NCBI RefSeq assembly: GCF_009834515.1
Contig: NZ_CP019426.1
Span: 3,833,501-3,897,500, forward strand
DNA length: 64,000 nucleotides
Direction of reading: 5' to 3'
DNA from: Pseudomonas sp. R84
Lineage (GTDB): Bacteria; Pseudomonadota; Gammaproteobacteria; Pseudomonadales; Pseudomonadaceae
Both the position numbers and the translations under genes were made by a program. The notes below the pieces were generated by a model. The model was not told the DNA's origin and searched no databases. It saw only the letters and a list, made by a program, of their open reading frames with translations. The stretch's first letter is position 1; every line of letters begins with the position of its first letter. This document shows, piece by piece, positions 30,750 to 56,242 of this stretch.

Positions 30750-30772
30750 CCCCAGGAACTGCACAAATCCCC

Positions 30773-30866
30773 TTGTAGGAGTGAGCCTGCTCGCGATAGC
30801 GGTGGATCAGCCAACATCATTGTTGAATGACATACCGCTATCGCGAGCAGGCTCACTCCTACAGGG
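30773..30866. repeat. REP doublet
   Basis: Inverted REP pair CCTTGTAGGAGTGAGCCTGC and complement, with GCGATAGCGG / CCGCTATCGC extensions. It lies between convergent eptA and the DUF971 gene. Confidence 0.9.
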
Positions 30867-30878
30867 GGAGGTGGTGGA

Positions 30879-31157
30879 TCAGGGGTTGAGGTTTGCCAGA
30901 TAGGCCCACGGGTAGATGCCGCGCTGGTGACCATCGCTGAACACCAGTTGCACGCCATAGCCCTGCGGGTTGAGTTCAATCAGGCGTATGCGGTCATCGA
31001 CCAGCGGCGTCAGCCCTTTCAGGCGAAACGCGCGGCACTGCGAGCACGGGCACTGGCGGCGCAGTTCGGCGTGGTTGAGCTGTTGCTCGCGGCCGTCCGG
31101 CCAGCTCAATCGTAGCGTCCCTTCGCTCTGCGAATTCGCCACCGACAGCGGGTTCAT
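30879..31157 (-). CDS. DUF971 (GBBH-like N-terminal domain) protein
   Basis: Protein of 92 aa, a stand-alone DUF971 domain: GTLRLSWPDGREQQLNHAEL, a cysteine cluster CPCSQC (Cys36, 38, 41), then IRLIELNPQGYGVQLVFSDGH and GIYPWAYL. The domain is known as the zinc-binding N-terminal part of gamma-butyrobetaine hydroxylase and as a tail on some Mrp/ApbC-type Fe-S carriers, HCF101 among them. It is the last of four overlapping genes (permease, ATPase, HEAT protein, this one) and shares ATGA with the HEAT gene. A role in metal or Fe-S handling for the cluster's flavoprotein/ferredoxin pair is plausible but inferred. Confidence 0.85.
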   Translation of the reverse strand: MNPLSVANSQSEGTLRLSWPDGREQQLNHAELRRQCPCSQCRAFRLKGLTPLVDDRIRLIELNPQGYGVQLVFSDGHQRGIYPWAYLANLNP

Positions 31158-32116
31158 TGCAACTGACTCAAGGCAATGCGCACGGCTTTGCGCACTTCCG
31201 GGTCGCCATCGTCCTGCGCGGCCTGCAACGCGGCCACGGCGCCGCGATCATTCAGTTCGCCCAAGGCCAGCGCGGCTTCTTTGCGCAGGTTGCTGATGCG
31301 ATGGCCGAGGGTTTCAATCAGCGCGTCCAGTGCCGGGGCAAATTGCAAACGGCCGAGACTGCGGGTAGCGCGCAGGCGCACTTGCCAGTAGTCATCGCTC
31401 AGCGCTTCGACCAACGCCGGGCCGGCATCGCGGTGGCCAACTTTGCCCAACGTCGTGGCGGCTTCCTCGCGCACTTGCCAGGCGTTGTCCTGCAAGGCCT
31501 GGCGCAGGGCCGGGAGGACTTCGGCGCTGGAGGCCAGGCCCAAAGCGCCGGTGGCGGCGCGGCGCACTTCGGTGTCGGGGTCAGCGCTGGCCAACCGCGC
31601 CAATGCCGGTAATGCGTCGAGCTGCTTGAGCCAGCCGAGCACGCCCACGGCTTCACGACGAACACTGGCATCGGCATCGTTCAGCGCGGAAAACGCAGCC
31701 GGTGCGGCGTCGGCGAAACGCAATTCGCGCAAGGCGCGGAACGCCGCGATGCGCACGCTGACGTCGGCATGATCGGTCCACGGCAGAATCACCCGCCCCG
31801 CTGCTTGCGTCTTGAGCAGACTCAAGCTCTGCGCAGCAGCGGATTGCACGGTGGGCGACGAGTCGGTCAGCGCCTCGCACAACGCTTGCACGACGTCCTC
31901 ATCTTCCCAAGCCTCCAGCAACCGCGCGGCTTCGGCGCGGACGTCTTCAGCGGGATCCTGGCCGAGGCGATCGACCAGCCAGAGCAAGCCATCGGGCTCC
32001 TCCAGATCTGCCAGATCAATCAGCGCAATACGCCGCACGCCAGCATCTTCAGCAGTCAGGCGCGGTTGCAGATCGAGAATGTCTTGGTTATCGGTCACAG
32101 CAAAAATAGAGGTCAT
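31154..32116 (-). CDS. HEAT-repeat protein of the ABC/AprAB-like cluster
   Basis: Protein of 320 aa built of about nine HEAT/PBS-lyase-type repeats of some 31 residues (for example DVRAEAARLLEAWEDEDVV, SVRREAVGVLGWLKQLDALP, EVRRAATGALGLASSAEVLP, QVREEAATTLGKVGHRDAGP, QVRLRATRSLGRLQFAPALD). There is no signal peptide, so it is cytosolic. Such solenoids are protein-interaction scaffolds; in bilin lyases and Fe-S systems they serve cofactor insertion. ATGA overlaps on both sides (with the ATPase and DUF971 genes) tie its synthesis to the transporter. It is an accessory subunit rather than an enzyme. Confidence 0.88.
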   Translation of the reverse strand: MTSIFAVTDNQDILDLQPRLTAEDAGVRRIALIDLADLEEPDGLLWLVDRLGQDPAEDVRAEAARLLEAWEDEDVVQALCEALTDSSPTVQSAAAQSLSLLKTQAAGRVILPWTDHADVSVRIAAFRALRELRFADAAPAAFSALNDADASVRREAVGVLGWLKQLDALPALARLASADPDTEVRRAATGALGLASSAEVLPALRQALQDNAWQVREEAATTLGKVGHRDAGPALVEALSDDYWQVRLRATRSLGRLQFAPALDALIETLGHRISNLRKEAALALGELNDRGAVAALQAAQDDGDPEVRKAVRIALSQLQ

Positions 32117-32961
32117 AGGGCAAATCGCGGCAAAGGGTTTTCGGGAGGCAGGCCGAGCGGATTGAGACGCGGCAGCGGTCGGTCGTTGTCGTGGCGCAGC
32201 AGGTCGAGGCAGTGGCGTTTGAGCCGGGAGAATTCAGGACTGGTGACCAGTTCGCTGGCGCGTGGCCGGGCGAAATCCAGGCGCAAGTCTTCGATGATTC
32301 GCCCCGGTCGTGCGCTCATCACCAGCAAGCGGTCGGCGAGGAACAGCGCCTCGTCGATGTCGTGGGTGACGAAGACCACGGTGGTGCGGATGCGCGTCCA
32401 GATGTCCAGCAGCAGTTCCTGCATGTTCAAACGGGTAAGCGCATCCAGTGCGCCGAACGGCTCGTCCATCAGCAACAGGCGCGGGCGATTGACCAGCACT
32501 CGGGCGATCTCGACGCGTTGCTGCATGCCGCCGGACAGCTGATCGGGCCAGCGTTCGGCGAAACCTTCGAGGCCGACCAGTTTGAGGATTTCGTCGGCGG
32601 CGCGATGACGTTCGGCCTTGCCGATGCCGCGCATCTTCAGGCCGAACGCAACGTTGTCACGCACCGTGCGCCACGGGAACAGCGTGTGATGCTGGAACAC
32701 CATGCCGCGCTGCGGTGACGGGCCGGACACCGCAGCGCCATCGACTTTCAGACTCCCGGCATGCGCGTTCAGATGCCCGGCCAAGGCGCCGAGCAAGGTC
32801 GATTTACCGCAACCGGACGGGCCAAGAATGCACACGAACTGGCCCGGTTCAATCTGGCAATCGAGTTCCCGTACCGCCTCGAACGCCTCACGCCCAGCGC
32901 CGAGGACGATGGATAACTGGCGGATGTCGATCCGCCCTTCCGGGGTTTGCATCACGCTCAT
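32113..32961 (-). CDS. ABC transporter ATPase, nitrate/sulfonate/taurine type
   Basis: Protein of 282 aa starting MSVMQTPEGRIDIRQLSIVL. Walker A ILGPSGCGKSTLL, Q-loop VFQHHTLFPWRTV, signature DQLSGGMQQRVEIARVL, Walker B LLLMDEPFGALD and H-loop FVTHDIDEAL place it in the NitT/TauT family. The residues beyond about 230 (RPRASELVTSPEFSRLKRHC) are the usual family tail. The start shares one base with the permease stop (TGATG) and the end overlaps the HEAT gene (ATGA). The frame runs on upstream to 33855, but that part is out-of-frame permease sequence. Confidence 0.93.
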   Translation of the reverse strand: MSVMQTPEGRIDIRQLSIVLGAGREAFEAVRELDCQIEPGQFVCILGPSGCGKSTLLGALAGHLNAHAGSLKVDGAAVSGPSPQRGMVFQHHTLFPWRTVRDNVAFGLKMRGIGKAERHRAADEILKLVGLEGFAERWPDQLSGGMQQRVEIARVLVNRPRLLLMDEPFGALDALTRLNMQELLLDIWTRIRTTVVFVTHDIDEALFLADRLLVMSARPGRIIEDLRLDFARPRASELVTSPEFSRLKRHCLDLLRHDNDRPLPRLNPLGLPPENPLPRFAL

Positions 32962-33740
32962 CAGGCTTTTCCTCGCGGTCGATGCCAGGGCGTGAACAAC
33001 CCGCCCAGACGTTTGATCAGCAGACTGCTGCCCATGCCCAGCACGCCGATCAGCAACATGCCGACGACGATGTCGGCGTAGTTCTGGATCGTGTAGGACT
33101 CCCAGGTGTAGTAACCGATGCCGAACTGGCCGGAGATCATTTCCGCCGTGACCAGACAGAACCACGAAGTGCCCATGCCGATTGCCAGGCCGGTGATGAT
33201 GCTTGGCGCTGCGCCGGGCAAGATCACTTCCAGCAGGATCGCGCGGCGCCCTGCCCCGAGGCTTTTCGCTGAGGCGATCAGCCGTGGATCGACACCTTCG
33301 ACACCGTGCACGGTGTTGAGCAGGATCGGGAACAGCGCGCCGGTGAAGGTGATGAAGACCATCGACAGTTCCGAGGACGGGAACATCAGGATCGCCAGTG
33401 GGATCCATGCCACGGCGGGGATTGGGCGCAGGACTTCCAGTGGGGGCAGCAGCAGGTCTTCGGCCCATTTTGAACGGCCGATGGCCAGACCGAGGGCGAT
33501 GCCGATGACTAGCGCAGCGAGGTAGCCGGCGAAGACGCGGCTGAGGCTGGCGGTCAGGTGTTGAAGGAGCTTGCCGGAATCGCCCAGGCCCAATGCTGCC
33601 TCGATAACCGCGACAGGTGTCGGCACGTTGGCGAAGGTGACCAGGCCGAGGTTCCAGTGGTGGCTGGCGGCGAGTTGCCAGAACAGCAGGCAGAGCAGCA
33701 AGGATGTGGCTCTTGATGTCCAGCGGATGGGTGTTTTCAT
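32961..33740 (-). CDS. ABC transporter permease, nitrate/sulfonate/taurine type
   Basis: Protein of 259 aa with about six membrane helices and the SsuC/TauC-type BPD_transp_1 domain; the EAA loop reads DPRLIASAKSLGAGRRAILLEVILPGAAPSI split over two motifs (LIASAKSLGAG and EVILPGAAPSIITGL). Other family marks are EVLRPIPAVAWIPLAIL and ENYADIV-like NYADIVVGMLLIGVLG. ATG 33740 is chosen at MKTPIRWTSR; upstream codons have no transporter features. It is separated from the binding-protein gene by a 250-bp repeat element but is codirectional with it. Confidence 0.92.
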   Translation of the reverse strand: MKTPIRWTSRATSLLLCLLFWQLAASHHWNLGLVTFANVPTPVAVIEAALGLGDSGKLLQHLTASLSRVFAGYLAALVIGIALGLAIGRSKWAEDLLLPPLEVLRPIPAVAWIPLAILMFPSSELSMVFITFTGALFPILLNTVHGVEGVDPRLIASAKSLGAGRRAILLEVILPGAAPSIITGLAIGMGTSWFCLVTAEMISGQFGIGYYTWESYTIQNYADIVVGMLLIGVLGMGSSLLIKRLGGLFTPWHRPRGKA

Positions 33741-33785
33741 CGAGCGGGTTTCCGGTTCTGGATCTGTGTGATGGCTGAGATTTAC

Positions 33786-33993
33786 CCCCCTCACCCCAGC
33801 CCTCTCCCCCCAAGGGGGGCGAGGGGGAAAGGGAGCCGATCTTCATGCCTTTCAAACCTGAGTTCGGCTCAAGAAGGAGCCGATCTTCATGCTTTTCAGA
33901 ACCTGAGTTCGGCTCGGTATTTCAGGTCGGCGTACCTTGCCAAAACACCGCGGTCAGTCCCCTCTCCCTCCGGGAGAGGGCTAGGGTGAGGGG
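33786..33993. repeat. MITE-like element with terminal inverted repeats and inner tandem hairpins
   Basis: A 208-bp element between CCCCTCACCCCAGCCCTCTC and GAGAGGGCTAGGGTGAGGGG. Inside are two direct copies of a roughly 43-bp unit (33833-33875 and 33877-33915), each starting GAGCCGATCTTCATGC and ending GAGTTCGGCTC, so each can fold through GAGCCGA/TCGGCTC. It is inserted between the permease and binding-protein genes. No coding sequence was seen. Confidence 0.65.
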
Positions 33994-34006
33994 CTTTTGA
34001 TCTTCA

Positions 34007-35398
34007 TCAGCGAGCAGCAACAGCCTGGGCAGTGGCATCGGTGAAATCGAAAACCTTGCCACCCTGTGCCGAGGCATATTGCTGAGCCTGCCCCTTAAGC
34101 AAAAACGCACTCAACCGTCCCTTCGCATCGCTGGCAAACCACGCCTGCTCCGCGAGCAACTTGATCCCGCTGTCACTGGCCTGCGCATACACCGCGCGAA
34201 TGGTTTTGCCTTCCTGCTTCAATGCGGCGAGTGCAGCGAACGCCTCTTCCGCAGACGCGTACTGCCGCACCTTGCTCTCACCGCGCACCCAGATTTCGGC
34301 AACGTGGCTGAAGTCAGTGATCGCTTTACCGGTAGTCTTCAACGGCGTCTGCGCGTAATTGGCCAACTGCGCCGTGTAATCCAGGTTCGACGCCTTGAAC
34401 GCCGCACGGATGTACTGATCGTCAATAAACGTATTCAGATCGAGCCCGCGATCAGCCTTCTTCAGCAGCTTCAACGTATCGATAGCCGTGCCGACCGCCT
34501 GGCGATATTCCGGCTTCCAGCTCAGGTCGCGGGTCTGCACGCCGAGCGGGCCGTGGAACAGGTAATTGACCTCGGCATCGACGCCGGTGACTTTGGCGAT
34601 CAGCTCGCTGTACTTCTCAGGCTCGGCAGTGAGCAACTGATTGGCCTCGATACTCGCCCGCAGGTAAGCGACAACGATCTCCGGGTACTTCTTGGCGTAA
34701 GCCTGATCCACCAGCGCACCATGGAAAGTCGGCGCATTGGCCTGGGCGCCGTCATAAATCTTGCGCGCGAAACCTCGGCTCGGGAACAGTTCGGCGAACG
34801 GCACGAAATCGGCGTGGGCGTCGATCTTGCCGGCCTGCAACGCCGAGCCGGCGACTTCCGGCGGCTGGGCGATGATGTTGACATCCTTGAGCGGATCCCA
34901 GCCCTGTGCCGCCACCGCACGCAGCAACATGCCGTGGGCGGTGGAGGCGAACGGCACAGAAATCGTCTTGCCCTTGAGCTCGCTCAGCGACTGCACACCC
35001 GATGCGCTCGGCACGACAATGCCGTTGCCGCTGCCCTTGATGCTGCCCGACAACACGCTGATGAACAGGCTGTGTTTGCCGGCGGTTTCGAACGCGACGC
35101 CGTTGAATGCGCCGGGGAAATCAGCCATGGCGCCGAAGTCGAGTTTGCCGGCGACCATCTCGTTGGTCAGCGGTGCGCCGCTGGTGAAGTTCTTCCACTG
35201 CACGTCGTACTTGGCGTCTTTGTAGGCGCCGTCGTGGGGCAGGTACTTGTCGAGCAGACCGAGTTCACGAATCAACAAGCCGCCGGCGGCGCAGTTGATG
35301 GTGGTGTCCTGGGTGCCGATGGCGATGCGGATGGTTTCGGCCGAGGCCGACAAAGTGAACGAAGCCAGTACCAGACCGGCGATTGCTGCACGCAACAT
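34007..35398 (-). CDS. ABC substrate-binding protein with NosL-like C-terminal domain
   Basis: Protein of 463 aa. A signal peptide (1-20, LVLASFTLSASA) and AGGGG seven bases before the ATG support the start. Residues 21-355 form a NitT/TauT-type binding fold (IRIAIGTQDTTINCAAGG, GKLDFGAMADFPGAFNG, LKGKTISVPFASTAHGML). The tail (361-455) reads like a NosL fold (AEIWVRGESK, IRAVYAQASDSG, LSAFLLKGQAQQYASAQGGK-VFDF) but lacks the Met/Cys copper motifs of true NosL. It delivers an anion-like ligand to the permease in this cluster. The ligand is not evident. Confidence 0.85.
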   Translation of the reverse strand: MLRAAIAGLVLASFTLSASAETIRIAIGTQDTTINCAAGGLLIRELGLLDKYLPHDGAYKDAKYDVQWKNFTSGAPLTNEMVAGKLDFGAMADFPGAFNGVAFETAGKHSLFISVLSGSIKGSGNGIVVPSASGVQSLSELKGKTISVPFASTAHGMLLRAVAAQGWDPLKDVNIIAQPPEVAGSALQAGKIDAHADFVPFAELFPSRGFARKIYDGAQANAPTFHGALVDQAYAKKYPEIVVAYLRASIEANQLLTAEPEKYSELIAKVTGVDAEVNYLFHGPLGVQTRDLSWKPEYRQAVGTAIDTLKLLKKADRGLDLNTFIDDQYIRAAFKASNLDYTAQLANYAQTPLKTTGKAITDFSHVAEIWVRGESKVRQYASAEEAFAALAALKQEGKTIRAVYAQASDSGIKLLAEQAWFASDAKGRLSAFLLKGQAQQYASAQGGKVFDFTDATAQAVAAR

Positions 35399-35527
35399 GG
35401 TTGTTTCCCCTCGAATCATTTATTTGAGTTCGTCTCCGCCGCGATCAGGGCGCGGTGGGAAACGAGGGGTGTTTTTCAATTCAGCGTCCGGGGTTTGCCG
35501 GATGGCTTTGGGTTGTCACAGTTCAAA

Positions 35528-35620
35528 TGTAGGAGTGAGCCTGCTCGCGATAGCGGTTTTCCAGATGTTGATGTGCTGACTGACACACCGCTATCGCGAG
35601 CAGGCTCACTCCTACAGGGG
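35528..35620. repeat. REP doublet
   Basis: Inverted REP pair TGTAGGAGTGAGCCTGCTCG and complement with GCGATAGCGG / CCGCTATCGC extensions. It occupies the 230-bp gap (35399-35628) between the ferredoxin and binding-protein genes. The remaining DNA upstream of the binding-protein gene should contain its promoter, which I could not resolve. Confidence 0.9.
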
Positions 35621-35628
35621 ATCGGGTT

Positions 35629-35874
35629 TCAACGCAGGAGATAGGGGATGTCGACTTTGACGGCACCCGTCGGGCAATCCTTTTCGCACGGCATGCAGTA
35701 CCAGCATTCATCGAACGCCATATAAGCCTTCTGCGTCGCCGGGTTGATCGCCAGCAAATCCATCGGGCAAACGTCGACACACACGGTACAGCCCTTTTCG
35801 GCGATGCATTTGTCCTCGTCCACGGTGACGGGGGCGTTGGAGCGGAAGAAGATTTCCTGAGCTTGATAGGCCAT
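35629..35874 (-). CDS. 2[4Fe-4S] ferredoxin, AprB-like
   Basis: Protein of 81 aa. It binds two [4Fe-4S] clusters: Cys23, 29, 32, 36 (CIAEKGCTVCVDVCP) and Cys57, 60, 63, 67 (CWYCMPCEKDCP). The size, the YMAFDECWYCMPC stretch and the pairing with the AprA-like flavoprotein 27 bp upstream resemble adenylylsulfate reductase beta subunits, but the long AprB C-terminal tail is absent. It should pass electrons to or from the flavoprotein's FAD in the cytosol. Same operon as the flavoprotein and GntR genes. Confidence 0.9.
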   Translation of the reverse strand: MAYQAQEIFFRSNAPVTVDEDKCIAEKGCTVCVDVCPMDLLAINPATQKAYMAFDECWYCMPCEKDCPTGAVKVDIPYLLR

Positions 35875-35901
35875 GGTCCGGACTCTCTTTTTAGGGGTGC
35901 A

Positions 35902-37632
35902 TCAAGCGGCGAAAGCGCCGACCCGCAAACGGTCGTAAGCCTGCATTTCTTCAGCATCGAGCGGGATAATGTAAGGCTCGACGGCTTTCTTGAAACTGGT
36001 CATCTGGCCGTCCTCGCCCTTCTTCAAATGGCAATGACAGAACCACTCGCTGTCGTTGCGCTGTGGGTGATCGACGCGATAGTGGTACAGGCCCCAACGG
36101 CTTTCAGCGCGGAACAATGAAGCGCGGGCGGCCATTTCGGCACAGTCGCGAATCACGCTGGTTTCCATGGCGCGCATCAGTTCGTGGGCGTTGTTGGCCT
36201 TCATCTGCTCGAGATCGCGTTCGATGTCGCTGAAGCGTTGCAGGCCGATCTGCATCTTCTTGGTGACTTTCGGCGGTTGCAGGTAATCGTTGACGAAGCG
36301 CCGCAGCTTGTACTCGACCTGCGCCGGCGGCAGGCCGTGTTCGCGATCCAGCGGTGCGTAGACCCGGGCTTTTTCCTTTTCGATCTGCTCGGCATCCAGC
36401 GCGGAAAACTCGCGGCCGGCGACAAAATCCGCCGCGTTGTGCCCGGCGAACCAGCCGTAGGTGAAGGCACCGAGCATGTAATTGTGTGGCACAGCGGCCA
36501 TGTCGCCCGCCGAATACAAGCCTTTCACCGAAGTCTCGGCACGTTCGTTGACCCACACACCGGACGCCGAGTGGCCGCTGCAAAAACCGATTTCGGAAAT
36601 GTGCATTTCGACCATTTGCGTGCGGTAATCGGTGCCGCGATTGGCGTGGAACTGGCCACGACTCGGGCGCTCGTTGCTGTGCAGGATTTCCTCGATGTTC
36701 TGGATGGTTTCCTCGGCCAAGTGATCGAGCTTGAGAAACACCGGGCCGTTGCCGCTCTCCAGTTCCTGGTGGAACTCCCACATCATCTGCCCGCTCCAGT
36801 AATCGCACTCGATGAAGCGTTCGCCCTTGTTGTTGGCGGTGTAGCCGCCCAGCGGTCCGGTGACGTAGGCGCAGGCCGGGCCGTTGTAATCCTTGATCAG
36901 CGGGTTGATCTGGAAGCATTCGAGGTTGGCCAGTTCCGCGCCGGCGTGATAGGCCATCGCGTAACCGTCGCCAGCGTTGGTCGGGTTCTCGTAGGTGCCC
37001 ATCAGATAACCGGAGGACGGTAAGCCGAGACGCCCGGCAGCACCGCAGGCAAGGATCACCGCTTTGGCCTTGATCACATGAAAGTCGGCAGTGCGGCAAT
37101 CGAAGCCCATCACACCGTTGACGGTGCCCTCCGCGTCGGTCAGTAACCGCGTGCAAACGAGGCGATTGGTGATGCTCACCCGGGCGCGTTTCAACTGCCG
37201 ATAAAGGACCTTTTTGATGTCGTGCCCTTCCGGCATCGGCAGCACGTAGGCGCCCATGTGGTGGACTTTTTTCACCGCGTAATCGCCGGTTTCGTCCTTT
37301 TCGAACTTCACGCCCCAGCGATCAAGCTGTTCGATGGTTTCGAAGCTGTGCGTCGCGTAGGCGTAAACGGCGGCCTGATTGACGATGCCGTCGTTGGCGA
37401 TGGTGATTTCCTTGGTGTACTGCTCAGGCGTCGAGTGACCGGGAATGATCGCGTTGTTCAGGCCGTCCATGCCCATGCTGATCGCGCCGCTGCGTTTGAC
37501 ATTGGCCTTGTCGACCAGCAACACGCGCAGATCGCGGTTCTTTTCCTTGGCCTTGATCGCGGCCATCGGGCCGGCAGTGCCGCCGCCAATGACGACGATG
37601 TCGTATTCCTGTTCGAGAACGTTGCGGGTCAT
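35902..37632 (-). CDS. AprA/fumarate-reductase-like FAD flavoprotein
   Basis: Protein of 576 aa. N-terminal Rossmann FAD motif VVIGGGTAGPMAAIKAKEK (14-32), the AprA-like VKRSGAISMGMDGLNNAI, a capping domain with VHHMGAYVLPMPEGHD, the second FAD contact GLYSAGDMAAVPHNYMLGAF, and a helical C-terminal domain with EWFCHCHLKKGEDGQ. This is the AprA branch of the SdhA/FrdA flavoprotein superfamily. There is no AMP-sulfate pathway gene nearby (no sat or qmo), so dissimilatory APS reduction is unlikely; an oxidation or reduction of the imported ligand is inferred. It overlaps the GntR gene (ATGA) and is followed by the ferredoxin gene. Confidence 0.88.
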   Translation of the reverse strand: MTRNVLEQEYDIVVIGGGTAGPMAAIKAKEKNRDLRVLLVDKANVKRSGAISMGMDGLNNAIIPGHSTPEQYTKEITIANDGIVNQAAVYAYATHSFETIEQLDRWGVKFEKDETGDYAVKKVHHMGAYVLPMPEGHDIKKVLYRQLKRARVSITNRLVCTRLLTDAEGTVNGVMGFDCRTADFHVIKAKAVILACGAAGRLGLPSSGYLMGTYENPTNAGDGYAMAYHAGAELANLECFQINPLIKDYNGPACAYVTGPLGGYTANNKGERFIECDYWSGQMMWEFHQELESGNGPVFLKLDHLAEETIQNIEEILHSNERPSRGQFHANRGTDYRTQMVEMHISEIGFCSGHSASGVWVNERAETSVKGLYSAGDMAAVPHNYMLGAFTYGWFAGHNAADFVAGREFSALDAEQIEKEKARVYAPLDREHGLPPAQVEYKLRRFVNDYLQPPKVTKKMQIGLQRFSDIERDLEQMKANNAHELMRAMETSVIRDCAEMAARASLFRAESRWGLYHYRVDHPQRNDSEWFCHCHLKKGEDGQMTSFKKAVEPYIIPLDAEEMQAYDRLRVGAFAA

Positions 37633-38399
37633 GCCTGCTCCCCTTTTTGCCGGTCGATCCGCAGGCGGTACTGGAACGCATCGCCACGGTAATAAAGGTG
37701 TTCGAAGTCCAGCGGCTGGCCTTGCGCGTCGTGGGTCAGACGCTCGATGCGCATGATCGGCGAGCCGGCCTCGACGTTCAGCGCCTGGGTCAGGTCGCTG
37801 TCAGCGAGCACCGCGTCGATGGCCAGATCGGCATGGCCGAGGGCGATGCCGCAGTCGTTTTCGAGGATCAGGAAGATGTCGCGGGTAACCAGATCGGCCT
37901 TCTCCAGTCGCTCGCCGACGGCTTTGGGCAGGTAGGTGATTTCCAGCGAGATCGGTTCACGATTGATCAGGCGCACGCGTTTGATCTGCGTAACGATCTC
38001 GCCCCCGGCGATTTGCAAACGCTCGGCGACGCGCTTGTCAGCCGGGATGAATTTGAAGCTGCGCAGGCGGTTGATCACCTCGTAGCCGCGTCCGGTCATG
38101 GACTCGGCGAGGCCTTGCAGGCTGCTGACGTTTTGAAAGGTTTTCGGTTTGGCGACGAAGGTGCCTTTGCCGTGGATCTTGAAGATCAGCCCTTCCTTTT
38201 GCAGATCGCCGAGCGCCTGGCGCACAGTGATGCGGCTGACTTTGAACAGCGCACCGAGCTCGCTTTCGGAGGGCATCTGGCTGTCTTGCGGGTATTCGCC
38301 GTCGAGAATGCGCGCACGGAGGACGTCGCGCAGTTGGGTGTGCAGCGGGACACTTGATAAGGAGAGCGGGCTAAGAGAGAGAACGTTATCGGTCATCAC
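37629..38399 (-). CDS. GntR-family (HutC/UTRA) regulator of the cluster
   Basis: Protein of 256 aa: winged helix (20-85, MPSESELGALFKVSRITVRQALGDLQ, then KIHGKGTFVAKP) and UTRA ligand domain (100-250, RVAERLQIAGGEIVTQIKRVRL, SPIMRIERLTHDAQGQPLDFE). HutC/UTRA regulators are normally repressors released by a substrate or intermediate of the pathway they control. It is the first gene of the run and overlaps the flavoprotein gene by 4 bp, so it is autoregulated with it. A palindromic operator candidate lies just upstream. Confidence 0.9.
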   Translation of the reverse strand: MMTDNVLSLSPLSLSSVPLHTQLRDVLRARILDGEYPQDSQMPSESELGALFKVSRITVRQALGDLQKEGLIFKIHGKGTFVAKPKTFQNVSSLQGLAESMTGRGYEVINRLRSFKFIPADKRVAERLQIAGGEIVTQIKRVRLINREPISLEITYLPKAVGERLEKADLVTRDIFLILENDCGIALGHADLAIDAVLADSDLTQALNVEAGSPIMRIERLTHDAQGQPLDFEHLYYRGDAFQYRLRIDRQKGEQA

Positions 38400-38503: not shown

Positions 38504-38598
38504 ATGTGGGAGCGAGCCTGCTCGCGAAAGCGGTGGTTCTTTCAGCAATGATGGTGACTGACACGCCGCCTTCGCGAGCAGGCTCGCTCCCACAGGGG
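38504..38598. repeat. REP doublet
   Basis: Inverted REP pair ATGTGGGAGCGAGCCTGCTC and complement with GCGAAAGCGG / CCGCCTTCGC extensions, between the GntR promoter and the end of the Gfo/Idh/MocA gene. Confidence 0.9.
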
Positions 38599-43596: not shown

Positions 43597-46500
43597 TTAC
43601 AGCGTCAGTTGCCCACGCTCCTCCTCGGTCAACTGCTGCTTCGCCTGTTCATCCAGCGCCCCGGCGCCCAACACCTGCACCGGGCTGTTCGGGTTGTAAC
43701 CCGGGGCCGGCGCACGGCTGGCACCATCGCGGGACGGCGCGAGTTGTTCATTGCCGAAGCTCAACACCTGCACGGTAAACACCGAAGCCTGATTCTGTCG
43801 CGACGCCGCTTGCTGCTGGCGCGCCACGTCTTCCGCCGCTTGCGTGGCCGAGGATGCAGCGGAACTGGCCGACGTGATCGCACCAGTGTTCACTGCCGAG
43901 ACCACCGGTACGCCGGTCGCCTTGCCCTGCACCGAAATGTTCGCGGCGTTGACCACCGTCAGCGCGGCGATGTTGACGTTGCCCGACACGCGAATCCCCG
44001 CCTCGCCGGCATCGATGGTGCCCAGCGGCGCGATCAGGTCGATGTCGCCCGGCGCCACTTCGGCGATCGGGTTGAGCGTGGCGATACCGGCACCGGTGCT
44101 CGGCACCGACGGCGACAGGGTCACATTGCCCCAAGTGTCGTAAACCCGTTTCGGCGGGGTGTAGACCACGGTGGTTTTCGAGCCGCGACCGGCGTTGATA
44201 TCGCCCTCGGCCGACCAGCCGAGAATCGAGCCGCCGAACGTGGTCATGATCCGGCTCTGGCCGAGCAAAATGCTGCCCTGTGAATAGAGCTGAATGTTGC
44301 CCGAACCCTGGGTGATGATCCCCGCCGTCGACGGTGGCGCCGCGCCTTCGATGCCGAATACCTGACCGCCGCCCGGTGTGAGCATCTGGATATCGCCGCC
44401 GAACAGAGTCTTGACCCCGGCGCCGCCGTACAGCGTGATGTCGCCGTCGTAGCGGATCGGATTGCCGGCCACATCAGTGGTCGGGAACAACGCAGCGATA
44501 GCGCTGCGACCGCGCAGGTAACTGCCTTTGCGCGGGCCATCGACATCGTTGTATTCCAGACCACCGGCACGCAATTCAGCGAAGTACACCTGCCGCGCGA
44601 AGATCGCCTGCTCGGAACCTGGCAGCGCCGCGAAGAAGGCTTGCGCCTGCTCGGCATTGCCGCTGAAGCCATAGCCGAGGGTCAGCCAGCTCTGCAGTTC
44701 GTCGAGGTAGGTTTTGACTACTTTGCCCGGTTGCACGCTCAAGGCCTTATCCGGATCGGCGAGGTTCTGGCGATTCAGATAACGCGCGATGAAATCCGCA
44801 TAACCTGGCCCCTGCGCGCCCACTCCCGCCTGCATCACGACACTCGCACCAGGGCGGTTGTCACCCGCGACCACCGGCCCGATGCTGGTAATACTGGCGC
44901 GGTCCTCCATCAGGATATTGCGCCCGGCATTGATGTCGAGAACGCCGGGACCGGCGATATCGAAGCTGCTGTAGAGGATGTCGCGGCCTGCGGATACCCG
45001 CGAAATATCTCGCGGATCGTTATGCACGAACAGGTTGCCGGTCGACGCAATGCTTTCGGTACTCGGGGAGCCCATTTCGGCGTTGGGCACGATCGTTGGC
45101 TGGCCCAGGAAGGTACCGGACGCAACGATGTCGCGGCCGGCCAGCATCCACACCGGAGCCGCCGCTTCGTACCAGGTGCGTCTGGACAGGTTGAACGTCA
45201 GCGTTTCACCGCTGCGCACGCCCACCAGATCACCGGTCAGGGCATAGAAGCGTGCCGGTGCCTGCACATCACTCAGCCCTGAGTAACTGTTGGCACCGAA
45301 GGCGAACAGCGGATATCGCAGGTTTTTATCCGGGGCGACACCATCGCTGCCACGGTTGGTCATGACCGGTCTCACCGAGGAGCTGCTGTCGTAGCCATTG
45401 AACGCCGGGGCGAAAGGTGTAGCGATGGCCAGCGGGCTGGCGCCCGACTGGTTGATCGCATAACCGCCGGCATAGATCGAATCCTGCGCCAGCAATTCCA
45501 GTTGCCCTGCATTCGACGGCGCCAGCAGCAATGAATAACTCGTTGCCGGCACTACGCCGCTGCCTTGGCTGTACACCGCTGACGGCCCGGCATAAATCGA
45601 GCCTTGCGCAGCCACTGCCCGCAAGATCGACGGATAGACAAAGCGCCCGTCGGTCGGCGAGGTATTACGCGCGGTAACGGGACCTTGCCCGGTGGTTTCG
45701 CCCAGTTGGGTGCTCGGCGTCAGATTGCCGCCCGCTGAAAACAGGTCGACCGCGGTGTGATCGGTCCACAACGAGAAACCGCTCAAGCCGCCCCCGTCGT
45801 GTACGACACCGTCCTCGGTGGTGAACGACGTCGAGTTCTGCAAGCGCACCCGGCCCGGATCCGCGGCCCCACCCAGCACCAGATCGCCACGGGTGTTCAG
45901 GCTCATGGCCGAATCGCCCGGGATCAACACCAGGCCGCCGGAAGCGCTGCCCAGCGTGGCCGTAAACGGATCATACGGGCGGATTTCACGCACGTCCTGA
46001 ACGGGAGCGGCAGCGCCATATTGAAGATTGATACCACCCAGCGCCCCCCCCGTCAGTTGTGCGGCACCGCGCAGGTTGATCAACGCACCTTGCAGATCAT
46101 GTTGCGCAATACCGATGCCATTTTGTCCCGCCCGGGCCTGCAGCGATGGGTTGACGGAGCCACCTACGCGGATGTCCATGTCGCCGCCGCCGGTCAATTG
46201 CAGAGTACCGTCGTTGCCGACACGTCCGGTGCTGCCGACTGCCACGATCAAGCCCTGCCCGCGAGGATAAAGGTTGCTGTTGCCGCTGCCGCCCATGGCC
46301 TTGAGCATGCCGGCGTCAGCACCGGCGCGCAGGCTGATGTTGCCGCCACCCAACGTCCCGAAGCCGGTGAACCCCACCAGGAAGGGGCCAGTGTCGACGC
46401 TTTGATCCGGCAACGGCTGAGTCGCATAGCTGCCGAAGTTGATCCACCACGCCGTCGGCACATCGCTGTTGCCGGTGCCCTGACGCCAGAGCCAATTGCC

Positions 46501-49500
46501 CACGGCCACACTCGGCACCTGTTCCGGGGTATCCATGTTTTGCGAGTACCCGCGACGACCCAGCACATCGCCGGAAATCGAACCGCCGGCATTGATCGTC
46601 AGGTTGCCACCCATTTGCGGGTACCAGGCCTGGTACAGGCTGTCGTTGCCGCTGACCCACTTCTCGTAATCGCTGCCGCCACTGCCCAGCACCGAGCCGT
46701 TATCCGACAGGCGTCCGCGCGGCTGGTTGTACAGCGGATCGACGTCCTGCGACTGCGTGCCGGCGGTGTAGACGCCGAACGGTGAGTCCATGCTCAGATC
46801 GCCCGCAGCGAGCACGTCCAGATCGCCGGTGCCGGTGCGCAACACACTGAACATTTGCGTGCGGGTTTTGACGGTGATGCCCGGTTTGTTTTCCACGCAC
46901 AGTTCCGGGAACGCACTGCACCAGGCCGCCACGTCATCGTCGCTCATCGGTGAGCCGGCAGGCATGCCCAGCCAGTTGTCCGGCGCCCACGCCCAACGCG
47001 GCGCCGGCACGCAAGAGTTCGGCGCCCAGTCACACCAGTCTTTCAGGTCGTCAGGCACTGGCTCACCGGGGGTAAAACCACCCAGGTTGCCGTCGCCCCA
47101 GACCAGCGTCGGCGGTTTTTCCGTCACCTTCAAGCCGTAGTGGGTGTCGGCCAGACGCAAGTGTCCGTCGCTGGAAAGCGGCTTGATCGCGCGGCTGTCC
47201 GCCGCACTCAGATCCGCACCCGCCACCACGCGCATCGACCACGACGCACTGCCGGCCGGCAACATGCTTGCGACTGCCCAGTTGCGCCCCTGTTGCGTGC
47301 CGTTCAACGGGCGCAACTCAATGAATGCGGTGCCGTCGGCCAACACGACATCCGTCATCGACGGGATCAGCGAGCCACGCAACAGGGCGAGCGAACCGCT
47401 CAGGCGCATGCCCTTGATCGCATTGGTGCCCGCCTCGACGTTGCCTGGCAACGGCACGCCTTTGGGCCAGCGCACGGCGCTGATCGCCGTTACCTTGTTC
47501 AAGCGGATGCCAGCGCCAAGGCGACTGCCCGCCGGCAAGGTCACGCTGTCGGCAAGCAGCGTACCGGCGGCGTACAGCAACTGGCCCGTCGCATCGCGTA
47601 CCGCAGCGGCCAGCACTGTGCCCGCGCCCAAGGTATACGGTCCGGCCAGGGTCGCCTCGGTGGGCAACAAGGTCCCGGCGGGCAGCGTCGCGGCTTGCAG
47701 CGGCACGTCGTAGTTCAAGGTGACTCCGGCCGGGAACAGCGTGCCTTCGGCCAGGGTCACGCCCGCCGTCGGTACGATCAGGTCGCCACCAAACGGTTGA
47801 ATGCCCGGCAAGAGTTTCCAGCCGGCATCGTCGACGGTTTCCGGCGGCGGCGCGAAACCGTCGTTGAGGCTGCCATGAATATCGAGGTTGCCGCCGGCAC
47901 GCATCACCAGACTGCCCGCCTCGCCCGAGCCGTACACGGCGGTTTTCTGCGTATGCGGATTGAGGCTGGCATAGCGGTAGCCGGACAAGTCCACATCGCC
48001 CTGCACCACCAGATCGCCGTCGGCGGTTTTACTGGCGATTTCCACGCCCGGCCGCAAATGAAACGCATCGGCATAAGTGGCATTGTTCAGCCCCGCCAGT
48101 TTGTTCTGCAGCAGGTTGCGGTTGGCCAGCGCCGCGTCGATGAACGCACTGCTGTCAGCATGGATGCGGTCGAAGTAAGCCTGATCGATCACCTGATATG
48201 GCCGTCCGCTGGCCGCCGGGTCGACGCCATCGGTGGCGTCGGTATAACGCCGCGTGGCGTTAAGGCCAATCGACCGCGCGCCCTGAATGCTTAGCGCACC
48301 GCTGGCATCAATGCCGATGTCATCGGCACCGAGGCGCGGCGCGTTCAACTCCAGCGTACCGCGCAACAGCCCGTCGGACTGCCCGGGCAACGTGCCGCTC
48401 ACGGCGTCGGTGCCATGGCGCAGATCGATCCGCGCTCCGGCGCCAAGGGTCAACAGACCCGCAGCGGAATTGAGCTCAACCGTCGCCCGGTTGGGCGCGT
48501 CGATGATCTTGCCGTAGCTGTCGACCCGCAGCACGTGACCATGAGCGTCGAGCACGGCGTTGCCGGCCAAGGTCAGGCCGTGTTGCGCCGACAGGCGAAT
48601 GTTGCCGACCCGCTCGCCGCTGGCATCGATCAAACCCGCGACGGTCAGGCTGCCGTTGTCCACCGAGACGTTCACTTCGCCAGCCTTGAGTCCGTCGCCA
48701 ATCAGCAGATCACCTTGCTTGAGTTGCAAACTGCGACTGCCAAAGACCTGACCGGCATTCAAGCGCTGGTTGAGGGCGGCAAACTGCTGACTGGCATCAC
48801 CGTTCAGGTGCTGGGCGCGGATGTCCACGCCTGCGGATTTGTACGGCACCCACGTGCCGCCGGCATCGTAATGGCCGCTGCTGGTCCCGAGGATCTGGCC
48901 TTGCAGATCAACCATGCCCGCATCGCTGGCCAGCGCGACAGCACTGAGGGTGCCGGCCTGATTGTTCTGTGCCGAGAGGTCGATGCGCGAACCGGCGGCC
49001 TGACGAATATTGCCGTGGCTGCTGTACAGCGCCACATCGCCGCCCCAGCTGTACTTGCTGACATCATTGAACGGCAAGGTGCGCCCGGCCATGTCTACAG
49101 ACGCGCCATTGGCGAGGGTCAGATCGCCTTCGGATTTCACCAGCAGTTTGCCGCTCGCCAGGGTGATACGGCTGTCCAGCACGACGCTGCGGGCATCGAG
49201 CGTCAGTTCCGCGCCCAAGGCATTGGCGGCCGCTGGCGTGCCGGCGCCGCTGAGCGTCAGGTTGTTGCCGGCCTTGAGCAGGTTGACCGACGCGGCCTCG
49301 CCCGTCAGCAGTGGCGTGCGCAGGTTGAGATTGCCGCCGCTGTAGGCGTAGCCCTTGACTGGATCGTAAGCGCCCTGTTCCTGATACACCGCCAGGCTGC
49401 CCTTGTGATTGGCGGTGATGCGCTCACTGGCGCTGAGGTTGACGTTGGCAAAACCCAGTGCCAGCCGATTGTTCTGCTCCAGACCGCTGGCCTGCGGATT

Positions 49501-52500
49501 GGGGCCGTAACCGAATTCGATACGCTGCGCCTGAATATCGAGGGTGCCGCGGCCCGTGCCGGCGCCGCCCGTGATGACGGCGCCGGGATCCTGGCTGGCG
49601 CCGTTCCAGATCAGATTGGCGGTGCGAATGGACGCCACGTCAGCGCTTTCACCTAAGCCGTAAATGCCTGGCGTGGTGATTATCAGGTTGTGCAATTGAC
49701 TCACGCCCGTCTGCGCGTCCAGCGTATCGAGGCTGACGTTGCCGTAGAAGTTGAACGCATCGCGGCTGGTCAGGCTCAAGGTTTCCAGCGCGGGCGCAGC
49801 AAATTGCGTATCGCCGCGCAACAGGCGATCGAGCACGCTCTGGTTCAGGGTCAGACCGGTCGGCACGCGGTTGCCGGCAGCGCTCAAGGCTTCGGCGCTG
49901 CCAGCGTTGACAGCGCCGACAGCCAGGGCCAGATGGCGGGTGCCGAAGCGTACCGACTCATCGAGTTCAAACTGCTTGTCGGTGGCGGCGGTAATGCTGC
50001 CGTTGGAATAGAGCAGCGTCGGGTTGTTGCAGACGGTCGTCGGGCACTTGCCAATACGAATGTCGCCCGCACCGGAAGTACCTTCCGCTACTGCTGGCGC
50101 CAGGACGTTGGTCCAACCGTTCGACACCATCAGCAGCGCGGCAGCCCCCGGCTGGTAGATGAAACCACTGCTGGAGTCGTAAGGCGCGTTGCCACGGCCC
50201 AGGGTGTTGATCCCCGAGCCGGCTTCGAGCGTAATGCCGCCATCGCTGCGGGCAGTGCGCAGCAGCACTTCGGGCGCCGACAACATCGCCCCTTCGCGCA
50301 GGGTGATCGACGTCGTGTAGCCAGTGAACGAGATGATATTACCCGCGCCGCTGTAATCGATCAGCGGTTGCGCGCCGAGGGTCAGGCGCCCGGCATTCAG
50401 ACCGTTGAGACTGTCGGCATACAGCGACACGCCAGTGAAACCGTCGGTACGCGAATGCCCGGCGCCGAGAACTTCAAAGTCCATCGCCCCGCGTACCGTG
50501 GCCGTTCCGAGCACCCCGCCGGCGGCCGGTGCAAACACCGCGCGGCCGTTGAAATCCAGGGCAATGTCCTGCTCGGCGCCTGGCATCAAATACAGATTCA
50601 GCGATTTGCCATCCATCGGCGCCAATGCCCGGGGCACGCCACGCCGTGTCGCGTCACTCTGGATGAATTGGCTGAAACCGGTCTCGTTGTACTGCGAATA
50701 ACGGCGCAGGACATCCGCAGACGTCAGAATGACCTGACTGGCCAGACTGTTACGCAACCCGGTGTTGGCAATCGACATCTGCCCCGAACCGGTCCACGAA
50801 CCATTGCGCATCTGCAACGCGCCGTTGCTGACGCCCGGCGTGGCCTGACCATTGACTTCGACCCGGAACGCCCCGGGCAGCAAGGCAAAGGTCGAGGGCA
50901 GTAACGTGTAGGTGCCCGCCGCCAGACCCGGCACGCCGGCACCTAGGGTTATTTGCTGACCGATGCGCGGATCGACCGCCCCGGCCTCGGCGAGCATCGG
51001 CGCGTAGGCACTCTGATTGCCCGGCACGATGGCGTACACCGGATTGCTGGCAAGGCCCGGCAGGCTGAAGGTGCCGTCATTGGCATTGCGCACCAGCGGG
51101 TTGTAGCGGGCATCGGTGGAACCGCCGCGCCCGGAGACAAACCCGGCGCCGCGCAGATCACCGCCACCGGACAGGTCGATCAGCGCGCCGCTCTGCACGT
51201 CGACATAGCGCGAGGTCAACGTCACGCCGGCCGTGTCGGCGCTGATGCCCTTGAGCTGAACGGATTTGCCAGCGTAGCGATAGTCGATGCCATCGGTGGT
51301 TCCACCATAAGGCATGACCAACCCGGCGGCCCTGACCGAAGTCACGCTGCCCGGCAGCAGGTGCAGCTCGCGGGTATTGACCACCGTCTCGCCGCCAAGG
51401 CTGATCATGCCCAGCGGTGCGCGAATCACCCCGCCTTGTTCAATGCGCCCGGCCGCCAGTGTCAGGTTGCCGAACACCGAATACGGCAACGCCGCCGGTG
51501 CGGCCCCACTGCTGCTGATGCGCAAGGTGCGAGCCGGATCGGCACCGGGGATCACGCTTTGGTAGCCCACCCGCACCTCGGCGGTGACATCGCTGCCAGG
51601 ATAGATCTGCGCGGCGCGCAGGTTGAGGTCGCCCGGTGTCCACAGTTCGGTTTTCTCGACATAACCGGTCGGCGCCAGAAAGCGCAGGTCACCACGGCTT
51701 TGCAGGGTGACCTGATCAAAGCCACGACGCGTCACCTGCACGTCCGGGCCCGTGAGCTGGACAATATTGCCCGCGGTACCGAACGACAGGCTGTTGCTCA
51801 GATCCAGTTGATCGGCACTGGCATTGAATTGCCCCGTCGACACACGCGTAGTCGGCGTGTTCATTACCCGAGGCCGAAGGTTGCCCGGCGCCTCGAAATA
51901 CTTGCCCGTACCCGACAGGCGCAGGTAGGGCGCGGACAGGTCGATACGCGCATTGTCTTGCGCGCCTTCGGCCAGCGATATCGCGCCGGCATACAGGCTC
52001 AGGCTTTGCTGCATGTGCAGATTGACGTCGCCGTCGAACGACAGCAGGCCGTTGCTCAGCACACTCAGATTATCGAACCCGCCAGCCATCAACCGGTTGG
52101 CACTCAGGCGGGCACGCCCGTATTGCAACGCGGGCGCCGCTTCCCCCGGTTGCACATCGGCCGGCAACAGGGCGTCAGCGGTTTTCTGACTGATGATGAT
52201 TTCGCGCGGCACGCGCACCTCATTGCTGGCGTCACTGCGCAGATAACTCGGCGTCTCCAGGGCGATCTCCAGGCGCCCACCCGCCGCGCCGACGCCACCG
52301 GCCGCCGCACGCAGGTCGCCGTCAATGAACAGGCCGTTGTAGGAACTCAAGGAAATTCGCCCGCCGTCCGTAGCGACCGCAGTCGGCCCCTGCCCAGCGA
52401 TATCCAGCAGCGCCTGCGCACCGGAAGCGTCAAGCCGCGCGCCATTGCGCACGACGACGTAGGCATCGGCCGCCGTAGCGGTGGCCTTCTTCGCATCGGT

Positions 52501-55500
52501 TTCACCGCCAATGATGATGCTGCCGCCCTTGCCGACCAGCCCATACACCCGGCCCAGCGCATCCACGCCCGTGGCGGCGCGCCCGGCGACATCGAGCACT
52601 GCGTGGTCGCCGATCCAGATCGAGCGGTTGTGGGCATTTTTGTCGGCCACTTGCGAGGCCTCGGCGACATTCATCGAGCCGAACTGCTGCTGGCGAATGT
52701 CGATGATGCCGCCCCAGGCGTGCAACTCACCGTCGACAGTAATCTGTCCGGCGCCGCGCACGTTGATGCTTTGCCCCGGGTCGACACTGATGCGCGAGCC
52801 CTGGCCGAGAGTCAGCGCATTACGCGCAGGATCGCTCAACGCTACCTCGCTGGAGCCGGCCTGCAAGCTCAGGCTGGTACCCGCGCGTTGCGTCAGTTGC
52901 GCCTTGCCTGGATTTTCCTGATAGAGCGTCGGCGTCCACAGTTCCAGCGCCTGTTGCGGGGCCACACCGCTGCCCTGACTGGCTGCCGCGTCAGCAAACC
53001 GGTAAACCGGCATCAGCACGTCGATCAACGTGTTGTCCGCAACGTCCAGGCGGTTCAGCCCGATCAGGTTGTAGGCCGAAAAGCCCTTGTCGAACAGATC
53101 CGCTTGCAGCTGCAAGGTATTGTCGGCGAGGCCTTTGTCGGTCTGGCCGATCAGCACGTTGCCGGCCTGAATCAACAGGCTGCCGCCGCCCGTCACACCA
53201 TAGCCACGCAACTGGCCAGCGAGGCGCAGATGACTGTCACCCGGCGCTGACAACGCACTGGACTCCAGCGTCATGTCACCGCCCTTGCCCCCCTGAGTCT
53301 TGCCGTTGGCCAGGATCGCGCCGCCGGAGGACACGTCGAGCAGGCTACCCGTGCCGATTTCGATGTCGCCGCTGCTGCGGATCGAAATCACGCCACCGTC
53401 CAGATACGCAAGACTGCTGGCGTCATCCGGGTCAGTGCGCAAGTTGCTCCACAGCCCCCGGGTGTCCAGTTGCACTTTTTCCGCCACGCGAACACCCGTG
53501 GTCGTGCCCGCAGGCGCAACAATGCGGGTATCGGTGACACGGTCGGTATTGAGCTGATTGAGCACGTTGCCCGCATGCAGGCTGCCGCCCCGCGCGATCA
53601 GGTCAGCATTGACCTGCACGTGCGGCGCGTAGAGGGTGATATCGCCACCGTTGCCGACCGTCACGGCGCCGTCCACGTCGATGCGCTCTGTGGCGGCGAC
53701 TTTCAGTGCGCCCAGTTGCCAGTCACTCAGTTGTGCGGCATCGAGAAACAGCTTGCCATTGCGCGCCTCGGACACTACGCCGGTCAGGCCCGCGTCGTTG
53801 TCGCCGAGCGGACGCTCAATGCCGATCTGCACCTGATCGAGCAACGGATTGAGGCCATAGAGCACGCCGCCCGCCGCCGCGACGTAGGCGGCATCGTAAC
53901 CACCGACGATCAACTGCCCGCGCCGCGCGACTGCGGTCTGACGCTGCGCGTAGCCATCAAGCACGGCACGCGGCGCCTGAGTCTGGCGCTCGCCCTGATA
54001 AACCTCCCCCAGCAGTTGCCCGTCGAGCACCGCGTTAGCGGTTCCGATCACCAATTGCCCGGCATCGCGACCCACGGTGTAGCCGGCCTCCAGGCGCTTG
54101 GTCGGTGCGATCAGCGGGTTGTAGTAATAGCTCGTCTGCCCCCAGCGTTCGCTGCTGTCTTCATAACCGTTGTACAGACCGCTGTAGAGCAGATCGCCCG
54201 GTGCCTTGGACAACTCGTAGAGATGCCCGTCGGCACCGCGCAACCAACTCTGGCGAATCTCGCCACTTTGCACATCGAGCGTGCCGCCAGACAGGTTGAT
54301 CAACGAGCCCTTTTCGGTCACCACGTCATTGCCGGCGAAGTTCACCGTCCCGCCCTGGGCCATCCATTCACCGATGCTGTGGCCCTGGGTGCCAAGGTAA
54401 CCACCGACTTCGAGCAAACCACCTGCCGTGTACCAGCGATCCGTGGCGTACCCGTTGGTGCCGGCGGGCACGTAGACCAGTTCACGCACGTCAACCCAGA
54501 CGTCGTTGCTGTTCAGCGCAGCTTTGTCGCGGTTGCCCGAAGCGTCGCGCTGTTCGTTGCCCTGCACGTTGATCTTGATGCTGTTGGATTCCATCGCGAC
54601 TTTCACGCCGATGGCGCCGGAAACGTCGATCAGCGCACCGTCGCGCACCAGGCTGCGACGCTGCGCGGACACCGCGATTTGTCCGCCCGTGGCCAGGGTA
54701 ATCGAACCGTTCTGGAACTCGACGCTGCCACCACTCTGGATGTCGATGCGCGACTGGTCGCTGCGAATCGAATTGGTCGGGGTAACGGCGGTCAGTGCGG
54801 CCTGATGCTGGCTGTCGAGGGCCGTGAGGTCACTGCTGTCGAGCATGATCGCCGTGGCACTGCCCTGCCCCAGCGTCACGCTGCCTTGCGTGTCCGTCGC
54901 CGGGTTGAGCAGATGAATCGTGCCGCGCGTGGCGACCGATGTGCTGGCGAGTAATACGCCGTTTTGCACGACCTCATGGCCGGTCAGGGTGATGTCGCCG
55001 GTCGCGGCCTGAATCAGTCCGTTGTTGCTGACCTTGTCGGCAACGCTGGCGGCTTTGAAGCCCGGCGTGACTTCGTTGCCGAACGTCGTGGAGAAGCCGT
55101 TGCCTTCGGTGCCCGAACCCTTGCGAATGTAAAAGCGATCCCCCGCGCCCAGCACGGTCTGGCCCTTGGCGGTGTTGATGCTGCCGTCGTTCTGCACTTC
55201 GCTGCCCAACAACAAGGCATAACCGCCGGCGTCGGTGGACTTCGCCGGTCGCGCGGTTTCGATGGACGCACCGCGTTCCACCAGCACTTTGCCCGCCGCG
55301 TCGGTGAACGTCGGCTGGCTGGCGCTGCTGTCGAAATACAGGCCGCGATCGCGGAACTGGATATCGGTGATGTTGGCGGCGGCCGCCACCAGGTTGCGCA
55401 CGTTGACCTGACTGGTGCCACTGAAGACGATGCCGTTGCGGTTGATCAGCATCACCGTGCCGTCGCCCTTGATCTGCCCCTGAATCTGACTGGCCCGTGC

Positions 55501-56109: not shown

Positions 56110-56242
56110 CACTACGAGATCCTTTTGGGTTGCCACACGAGGCCGCAGGTCGGGTCGACCCTGCTGTTATGACATAGGCGGTTGGCGAAGGCTGCGACCG
56201 AACGGATGTCACACAAACTTCATGATTGAGGAGTAGATCGGC
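56110..56242 (-). promoter_or_regulatory. Upstream region of the TpsA gene
   Basis: The 133 bp between the TpsA start and the DING terminator must contain the tpsA promoter. On the minus strand ATGTCAT (56169-56175) matches six of seven positions of a PhoB half-box but has no partner at the 11-bp period. No sigma-70 or ECF-type hexamers were convincing. Confidence 0.3.

Follow-up and report, generated by a model that had tools for sequence, protein, structure and literature searches.

An eight-gene cluster of the soil bacterium Pseudomonas sp. R84 raises the question of what a flavoprotein related to the adenosine 5′-phosphosulfate (APS) reductase subunit AprA does beside the genes of an ATP-binding cassette (ABC) importer. 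The cluster lies at positions 30879-38399 of the window, by which we mean the whole 64,000-nucleotide stretch that was analysed (NZ_CP019426.1, positions 3,833,501 to 3,897,500). The cluster is real and conserved and, within the literature searched, uncharacterised. Our tentative reading, drawn from the sequence-level evidence of gene content, linkage, fold, residue changes and electron-supply neighbours, is that it encodes a substrate-controlled import-and-reduce module, i.e., a ferredoxin-dependent reductase for an imported anion that would probably be an organosulfonate.

Gene content of the locus

Open reading frames and domain matches place all eight genes on the minus strand, in a single direction:

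37629..38399, minus strand: GntR-family regulator with a UTRA ligand domain (REG), 256 amino acids (aa); PF00392 and PF07702 over cut-off
35902..37632, minus strand: AprA-like flavoprotein (FLAV), 576 aa, probable catalytic subunit; NF006131, FAD_binding_2 and Succ_DH_flav_C
35629..35874, minus strand: eight-cysteine, two-cluster ferredoxin (FDX), 81 aa, probable electron-transfer subunit; PF12838 (Fer4 dicluster) over cut-off
34007..35419, minus strand: TauA/SsuA-like solute-binding protein of the NMT1 type, 470 aa
34007-34357, minus strand: NosL-fold domain, residues 355-470 of the binding protein
32961..33794, minus strand: ABC permease (BPD_transp); PF00528 over cut-off
32113..32961, minus strand: ABC ATPase, its ATG start inferred from the reading frame; PF00005 over cut-off on frame 32113-32967
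31154..32116, minus strand: HEAT-repeat protein (HEAT_2), 320 aa, partner of FLAV; PF13646, NF010374 positions 611-896
30879..31157, minus strand: DUF971/GBBH-like_N protein with a CxCxxC motif, 92 aa; PF06155, 76 bits against a cut-off of 22.8

GBBH-like_N is the present name of the DUF971 family (PF06155). An earlier note made from the sequence alone (the original prediction) had described eight codirectional genes with these domains, and all of them were found. It had also described four genes that overlap end to end, and they do: ATPase/HEAT and HEAT/DUF971 share 4 bases each, as do REG/FLAV, and permease/ATPase share 1 base when the likely ATG is taken as the ATPase start (7 with the frame that is 6 bases longer). 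The intergenic gaps measure 27 bases between FDX and FLAV, 209 between the binding protein and FDX, and 212 between the permease and the binding protein.

The cluster recurs as one unit

In a phylum sample of 299 genomes, FLAV was matched at E ≤ 1e-100 in 18, the host among them, and the 17 other carriers all had homologues of FLAV, FDX, HEAT and DUF971 in a cluster, with the importer in 15 of the 17. We compiled 31 non-Pseudomonas loci, comprising 12 from the phylum sample, 5 from a class sample and 14 plasmid-collection records selected for diversity from 53 with a match (plasmid gene tables are incomplete); neighbour clustering was based on non-overlapping frames. The controls were 40 hand-picked regions of ∼20 kb each from 20 module-carrying genomes, with no cyanobacterial or actinobacterial record among them. 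FLAV, FDX and HEAT were found in 31 of the 31 loci, the binding protein, the permease and the ATPase in 26 each, and DUF971 in 17, while each module gene was absent from the control regions (0/40) except for one generic ATPase (1/40). The joint presence of FLAV, FDX and HEAT in every locus and in no control, together with an importer in 26 of 31 loci, therefore indicates one functional unit. The original prediction had made co-occurrence of its two halves (regulator-flavoprotein-ferredoxin and ABC-HEAT-DUF971) the point to check by a neighbourhood search; co-occurrence was upheld, and two unrelated halves are ruled out. The regulator is of a varying type, with a UTRA regulator in 14 of the 31 loci and a Crp/Fnr type in 12 (0/40 controls). 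Five loci (L027, L031, L121, L133 and L145) had no importer of the module type in the stretch read; L145 ends at a contig end, and L133 holds other sulfonate-type binding proteins despite lacking a linked module-type importer.

Among 85 Pseudomonas-family loci, FLAV and FDX were present in 85, REG in 84, the ATPase and HEAT in 82, DUF971 in 81, the binding protein in 80 and the permease in 79; in the three loci in which HEAT was not found (L062, L063 and L084), the stretch ends short. The gene order of the window was reproduced exactly in the frame lists of 46 of the 80 Pseudomonas loci listed for this comparison (at least 80 exist), and many of the others listed depart from it only in how overlapping frames are ordered or in having additional ABC genes. 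Three of the 80 (L107, L116 and L117) have no importer, and some loci are cut by contig ends. The module ranges over Proteobacteria, three cyanobacterial records (L131-L133) and two actinobacterial records (L130 and L135), and its distribution is patchy (2/387 and 6/370 genomes in two class samples).

The flavoprotein forms a clade separate from AprA

FLAV is a single-copy gene in the one-contig, 6.60-Mb host genome, where two other matches are only 27-28% identical, and its closest named relatives belong to Pseudomonas of the fluorescens kind. It scored 1138.4 bits with NCBIfam model NF006131 (cut-off, 587) but stayed below the cut-off for aprA (TIGR02061; 198.4 against 641.75) and for the sdhA/frdA models (TIGR01812, 166.3 against 567.3; TIGR01176, 120.3 against 932.7), and FDX likewise did not reach that for aprB (TIGR02060; 36.7 against 135.65). 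Its top solved relative was the alpha subunit of the 3′-phosphoadenosine 5′-phosphosulfate (PAPS) reductase of Methanothermococcus (8a8o), followed by APS reductase. A FastTree phylogeny put 32 FLAV sequences in one group (support, 0.872) as sister to AprA plus PAPS reductase (1.0), and these together were split from two other host flavoproteins (0.997). The homology to AprA and AprB that the original prediction had proposed thus stands as kinship, in the tree and among solved structures, whereas the family cut-offs for both proteins are not reached.

AprA Asn74 and His398 are retained as FLAV Asn59 and His354 in 32/32 sequences, but Arg265 is replaced by Leu245, Arg317 by Met283 and Trp234 by Tyr214, also in 32/32. 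An alternative hand alignment sets Arg317 opposite FLAV residue 285, which is variable and never Arg in the 32. FLAV cysteines 239, 254, 351 and 497 are invariant in 32/32, and the eight cysteines and Trp58 of FDX are present in 32/32 aligned sequences. PAPS reductase itself retains all five AprA positions; the enzyme of Methanothermococcus thermolithotrophicus is said to keep the catalytic residues and to differ in those that coordinate APS (PMC10322725). Compared with this enzyme (8a8o) and AprAB (1jnr, 2fja), the module shares the flavoprotein fold over nearly its whole length, a small two-cluster ferredoxin partner and the positions of Asn74 and His398. It differs in having Leu and Met for Arg265 and Arg317, an 81-aa ferredoxin, a HEAT partner and a linked importer.

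Could FLAV nevertheless be an APS/PAPS reductase or a fumarate reductase of the ordinary sort that merely goes by a different name? Its fold and kinship point that way, as does its NCBI name, “fumarate reductase/succinate dehydrogenase flavoprotein subunit.” Given scores below the aprA, aprB and sdhA/frdA cut-offs, Leu and Met at both arginine positions throughout, and a separate clade, this is very improbable, and we rejected both identities. Neither the clade nor the residues support the name “fumarate reductase.” APS reduction had been called unlikely in the original prediction; we agree, because the two arginine positions are replaced in all 32 sequences. The absence of sat, qmo and aprM-type genes, on which that view had rested, holds for the genes listed around the cluster; the genome itself was not searched for them.

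Two records of Acidithiobacillus caldus plasmids (NC_015854.1, 21636-22109; NZ_CP026330.1, 18497-18970) match only the first 158 residues of FLAV, at 27%, which suggests that partial FLAV copies exist.

Electron-supply genes point to a reductase

Ferredoxin-linked genes of some kind accompany 14 of the 31 non-Pseudomonas loci and none of the 40 controls. They comprise 7Fe FdxA (10/31), ferredoxin-NADP reductase (FNR; 7/31), Rnf genes (2/31) and a large fused protein similar to NfnB/glutamate-synthase beta and NfnA (2/31). In four loci the FNR gene stops 68-115 bases short of the FLAV open frame; in L144 and L146 it is HEAT that is followed by FdxA and Rnf genes, and other electron-supply genes lie 4-7 kb off. 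As the queries came from these same loci and several loci are close relatives (one genus supplies four of the FNR loci), the counts demonstrate recurrence and are no independent statistic. Such genes are linked in 0/85 Pseudomonas-family loci; the host has FdxA and FNR-like genes elsewhere in its genome. The occurrence of several different ferredoxin-feeding systems around FLAV argues for a low-potential reductase.

FNR, Rnf and Nfn-like electron carriers are reversible in principle, and FLAV-FDX might instead oxidise an imported sulfur compound or sulfite, with these proteins collecting the electrons via ferredoxin. In aerobes, however, FNR and FdxA as a rule act as electron donors. The APS-site arginines are replaced, and the listed neighbours include neither an ATP sulfurylase gene nor one for a membrane protein of the Qmo type. 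Genes of the sulfate/sulfite exporter type would suit an end product of oxidation, and APS reductase runs in both directions according to one study (PMC10322725). Overall, we consider oxidation improbable and expect the module to work in the reductive direction with reasonable confidence.

The Nfn-like fusions, of 1153-1183 aa, lie beside or near the module at L118:10574-14035 and L143:15691-19239.

HEAT and DUF971 proteins

In Tsukamurella (L130), FLAV and HEAT are one 893-aa protein that scores 1568 with NF010374 (cut-off, 1196), and the HEAT protein of the window matches positions 611-896 of this 898-position fusion model, i.e., its C-terminal part. In 19 relatives, 5 matched NF010374 via the flavoprotein and none exceeded the cut-off (0/19), and there was no match in 14 control genomes (0/14). 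Both NF006131 (PRK08275), which is FLAV itself, and NF010374 (PRK13800), the FLAV-HEAT fusion, are named models without a tested function.

The original prediction had proposed that HEAT and DUF971 mature the Fe-S clusters of the FLAV-FDX pair. In three cyanobacterial records (3/31 loci, 1/40 controls), the place after HEAT that DUF971 has in others is taken by an Mrp/NBP35 Fe-S carrier, and a maturation role for DUF971 itself is plausible on this basis. HEAT, on the other hand, occurs in every one of the 31 loci and, in Actinobacteria, as a fusion with FLAV, which would be unusual for a maturase, and this fusion makes it more likely that HEAT is a partner of FLAV than a general Fe-S maturase. 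DUF971 was detected in only 17 of the 31 loci, making it the least constant part on the enzyme side, although divergent copies may be missed at the 25-bit threshold; as an essential core component it was rejected. Its CxCxxC motif, present in the window, is lost in L033, L121, L122 and L136 and partly lost in L027 and L034, several rhizobial loci being among the losses. Maturation by the two proteins together therefore appears doubtful, with the DUF971 half of the proposal the one that remains plausible.

The importer and its ligand

In profile searches, solved TauA and SsuA were the best two matches of the binding protein (E = 7e-26 and 3e-24). A structure search gave a tie among CmpC, SsuA and TauA, and the protein stays below the family cut-offs for SsuA_fam (TIGR01728; 126.6 against 163.5) and taurine (TIGR01729; 96.3 against 304.25). 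On balance, we predict a sulfonate-type anion as its ligand, by a modest preference. While TauABC and SsuABC have the nearest solved binding proteins by profile, that of the module adds the NosL-fold domain, a feature missing from the original prediction. The fold was recognised once residues 355-470 were folded alone; a structure search with the whole model listed no NosL row. The domain shares its fold with the NosL copper chaperone but is fused to the binding protein, and alignments of 28 and 32 sequences show no Cys, Met or His, the residue types that bind copper in NosL, among its conserved residues. It represents a reuse of the NosL fold on a solute-binding protein.

Two cyanobacterial loci encode LysR-type regulators (L131:9652-11652 and L132:7379-9415, both minus strand) whose C-terminal domain resembles the binding protein of the importer. 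These are apparently DNA-binding sensors built from a solute-binding fold, and their binding domain offers a handle for finding the ligand.

Sulfur context and proposed reaction

YeiH-type exporter genes occur near 6 of the 31 loci (0/40 controls), in three of these at a distance of 5.7-7.6 kb, and TauE/SafE near 3 (1/40 controls); one or the other is found in 7/31, and neither is near any of the 85 Pseudomonas-family loci. In Nostoc (L133), homocysteine synthase, metX and YeeE/YedE are close to the module, and in Cupriavidus (L134) an SsuA-type importer and a flavin mononucleotide (FMN) monooxygenase stand beside it. Elsewhere in its genome the host has genes of the sulfite reductase type and two for alkanesulfonate monooxygenases. 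These neighbours and host genes support, but do not prove, a sulfonate-type substrate and a sulfite product.

We propose the following sequence of events. The TauA/SsuA-like protein, which includes the NosL-fold domain, would catch a small organic anion (an organosulfonate or a related oxidised sulfur compound being the likeliest), and the permease and the ATPase would carry it into the cytoplasm. FLAV and the AprB-like FDX, held by HEAT, would reduce it with low-potential electrons, and DUF971 (Mrp/NBP35 in cyanobacteria) may aid the loading of Fe-S clusters. The electrons would come from NAD(P)H via FNR, Rnf, the Nfn-like fusion or FdxA, whose genes are linked in other lineages and unlinked in Pseudomonas. 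Sulfite, if it is the product, would pass to sulfite reductase or be exported; we hold its release to be possible, somewhat short of an even chance.

The loss of two arginines with Asn and His kept fits a sulfonate without adenosine monophosphate (AMP). It would fit a quite different small molecule as well. The import-and-reduce architecture could then be kept with another organic anion as substrate (for example, one with a C=C bond, an N-O bond or a nitro group) and with incidental sulfur neighbours. Leu and Met at both APS/PAPS-site arginine positions would agree with this, as would a binding-protein fold that also serves nitrate, bicarbonate, pyrroloquinoline quinone and thiamine-type ligands, the lack of a visible exporter gene in most loci, and the amidase or GNAT genes in some. 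The first ranks of TauA and SsuA in the profile searches, the YeiH/TauE genes in seven loci and the sulfur genes beside L133 and L134 speak against it, and we judge a non-sulfonate anion rather unlikely.

If the substrate is a sulfonate, FLAV-FDX-HEAT might be a ferredoxin-dependent reductive desulfonase whose reduced flavin attacks the sulfur of the sulfonate and forms an N5-SO3 adduct as in APS reductase, the leaving group being organic and not AMP. We offer this as a speculative mechanism; such an enzyme, were it to exist, would yield the desulfonated compound plus sulfite without oxygen. It would be a new kind of reaction, sulfonate removal by reduction instead of oxygen; the enzyme would parallel SsuD and TauD without their need for oxygen and would have been spread through Proteobacteria, Cyanobacteria and Actinobacteria with gene clusters and plasmids. 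More broadly, should the sulfonate reading hold, soil bacteria, rhizobia, cyanobacteria and acidophiles would have, besides the oxygenases and lyases already known to serve sulfonate use, a reductive route that needs no oxygen. For the AprA-like clade that pipelines name “fumarate reductase,” the analysis defines a genetic unit and suggests where its electrons probably come from and which substrates are candidates.

Two side observations concern the Nostoc locus L133. A 769-aa fusion of FAD-NAD(P)-binding and metallo-beta-lactamase domains lies near the module (L133:7788-10097, minus strand), and in this Nostoc edaphicum record the flavoprotein and the ferredoxin are separated by five additional genes, for two HAD hydrolases, one methyltransferase, one GNAT protein and one VOC protein (L133:13713-16894).

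Earlier descriptions of the locus

No characterisation of the cluster was found in the literature searched, a search whose scope left out most subscription journals. The statement in the original prediction that no pathway of this composition had been described holds in this sense, but the composition had been noticed in part. A 2025 Acidithiobacillus paper (PMC12375680) lists “ferredoxin/APS reductase/GntR” and “NirT/TauT sulfonate transporter” modules as A. caldus plasmid cargo and mentions two operons for which a role in the uptake and assimilation of organosulfonates is predicted; to equate these operons with the two cargo modules is our own reading. In the pTcM1 record, GntR, FLAV, FDX and HEAT are consecutive, with importer genes nearby. 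The cargo is the same kind of locus, presented in the accessible text as a genome-paper prediction without HEAT, NosL or electron-supply analysis. The part of PMC3826726 that was available holds nothing on the cluster, and a Paraburkholderia phymatum NifA paper, as far as its available text goes, mentions a sulfonate transporter operon that is not tied to this cluster and was not used.

Repeats and surroundings

Three mutually related inverted-repeat pairs (30768-30869, 35528-35620 and 38505-38594), with arms of 37-49 nt that are 84-92% complementary, accompany the cluster; two bracket it and one lies between the binding protein and the ferredoxin. They resemble repetitive extragenic palindromic (REP)-type elements. 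A conserved operator was sought upstream of the regulator in 78 loci, and none is claimed because the commonest exact palindromes recur in only 12-18 of the 78 and one sits inside a repeat element. Elsewhere in the window, a 4179-aa open frame (43597-56136, minus strand) reads like an exported protein of the filamentous-haemagglutinin type.

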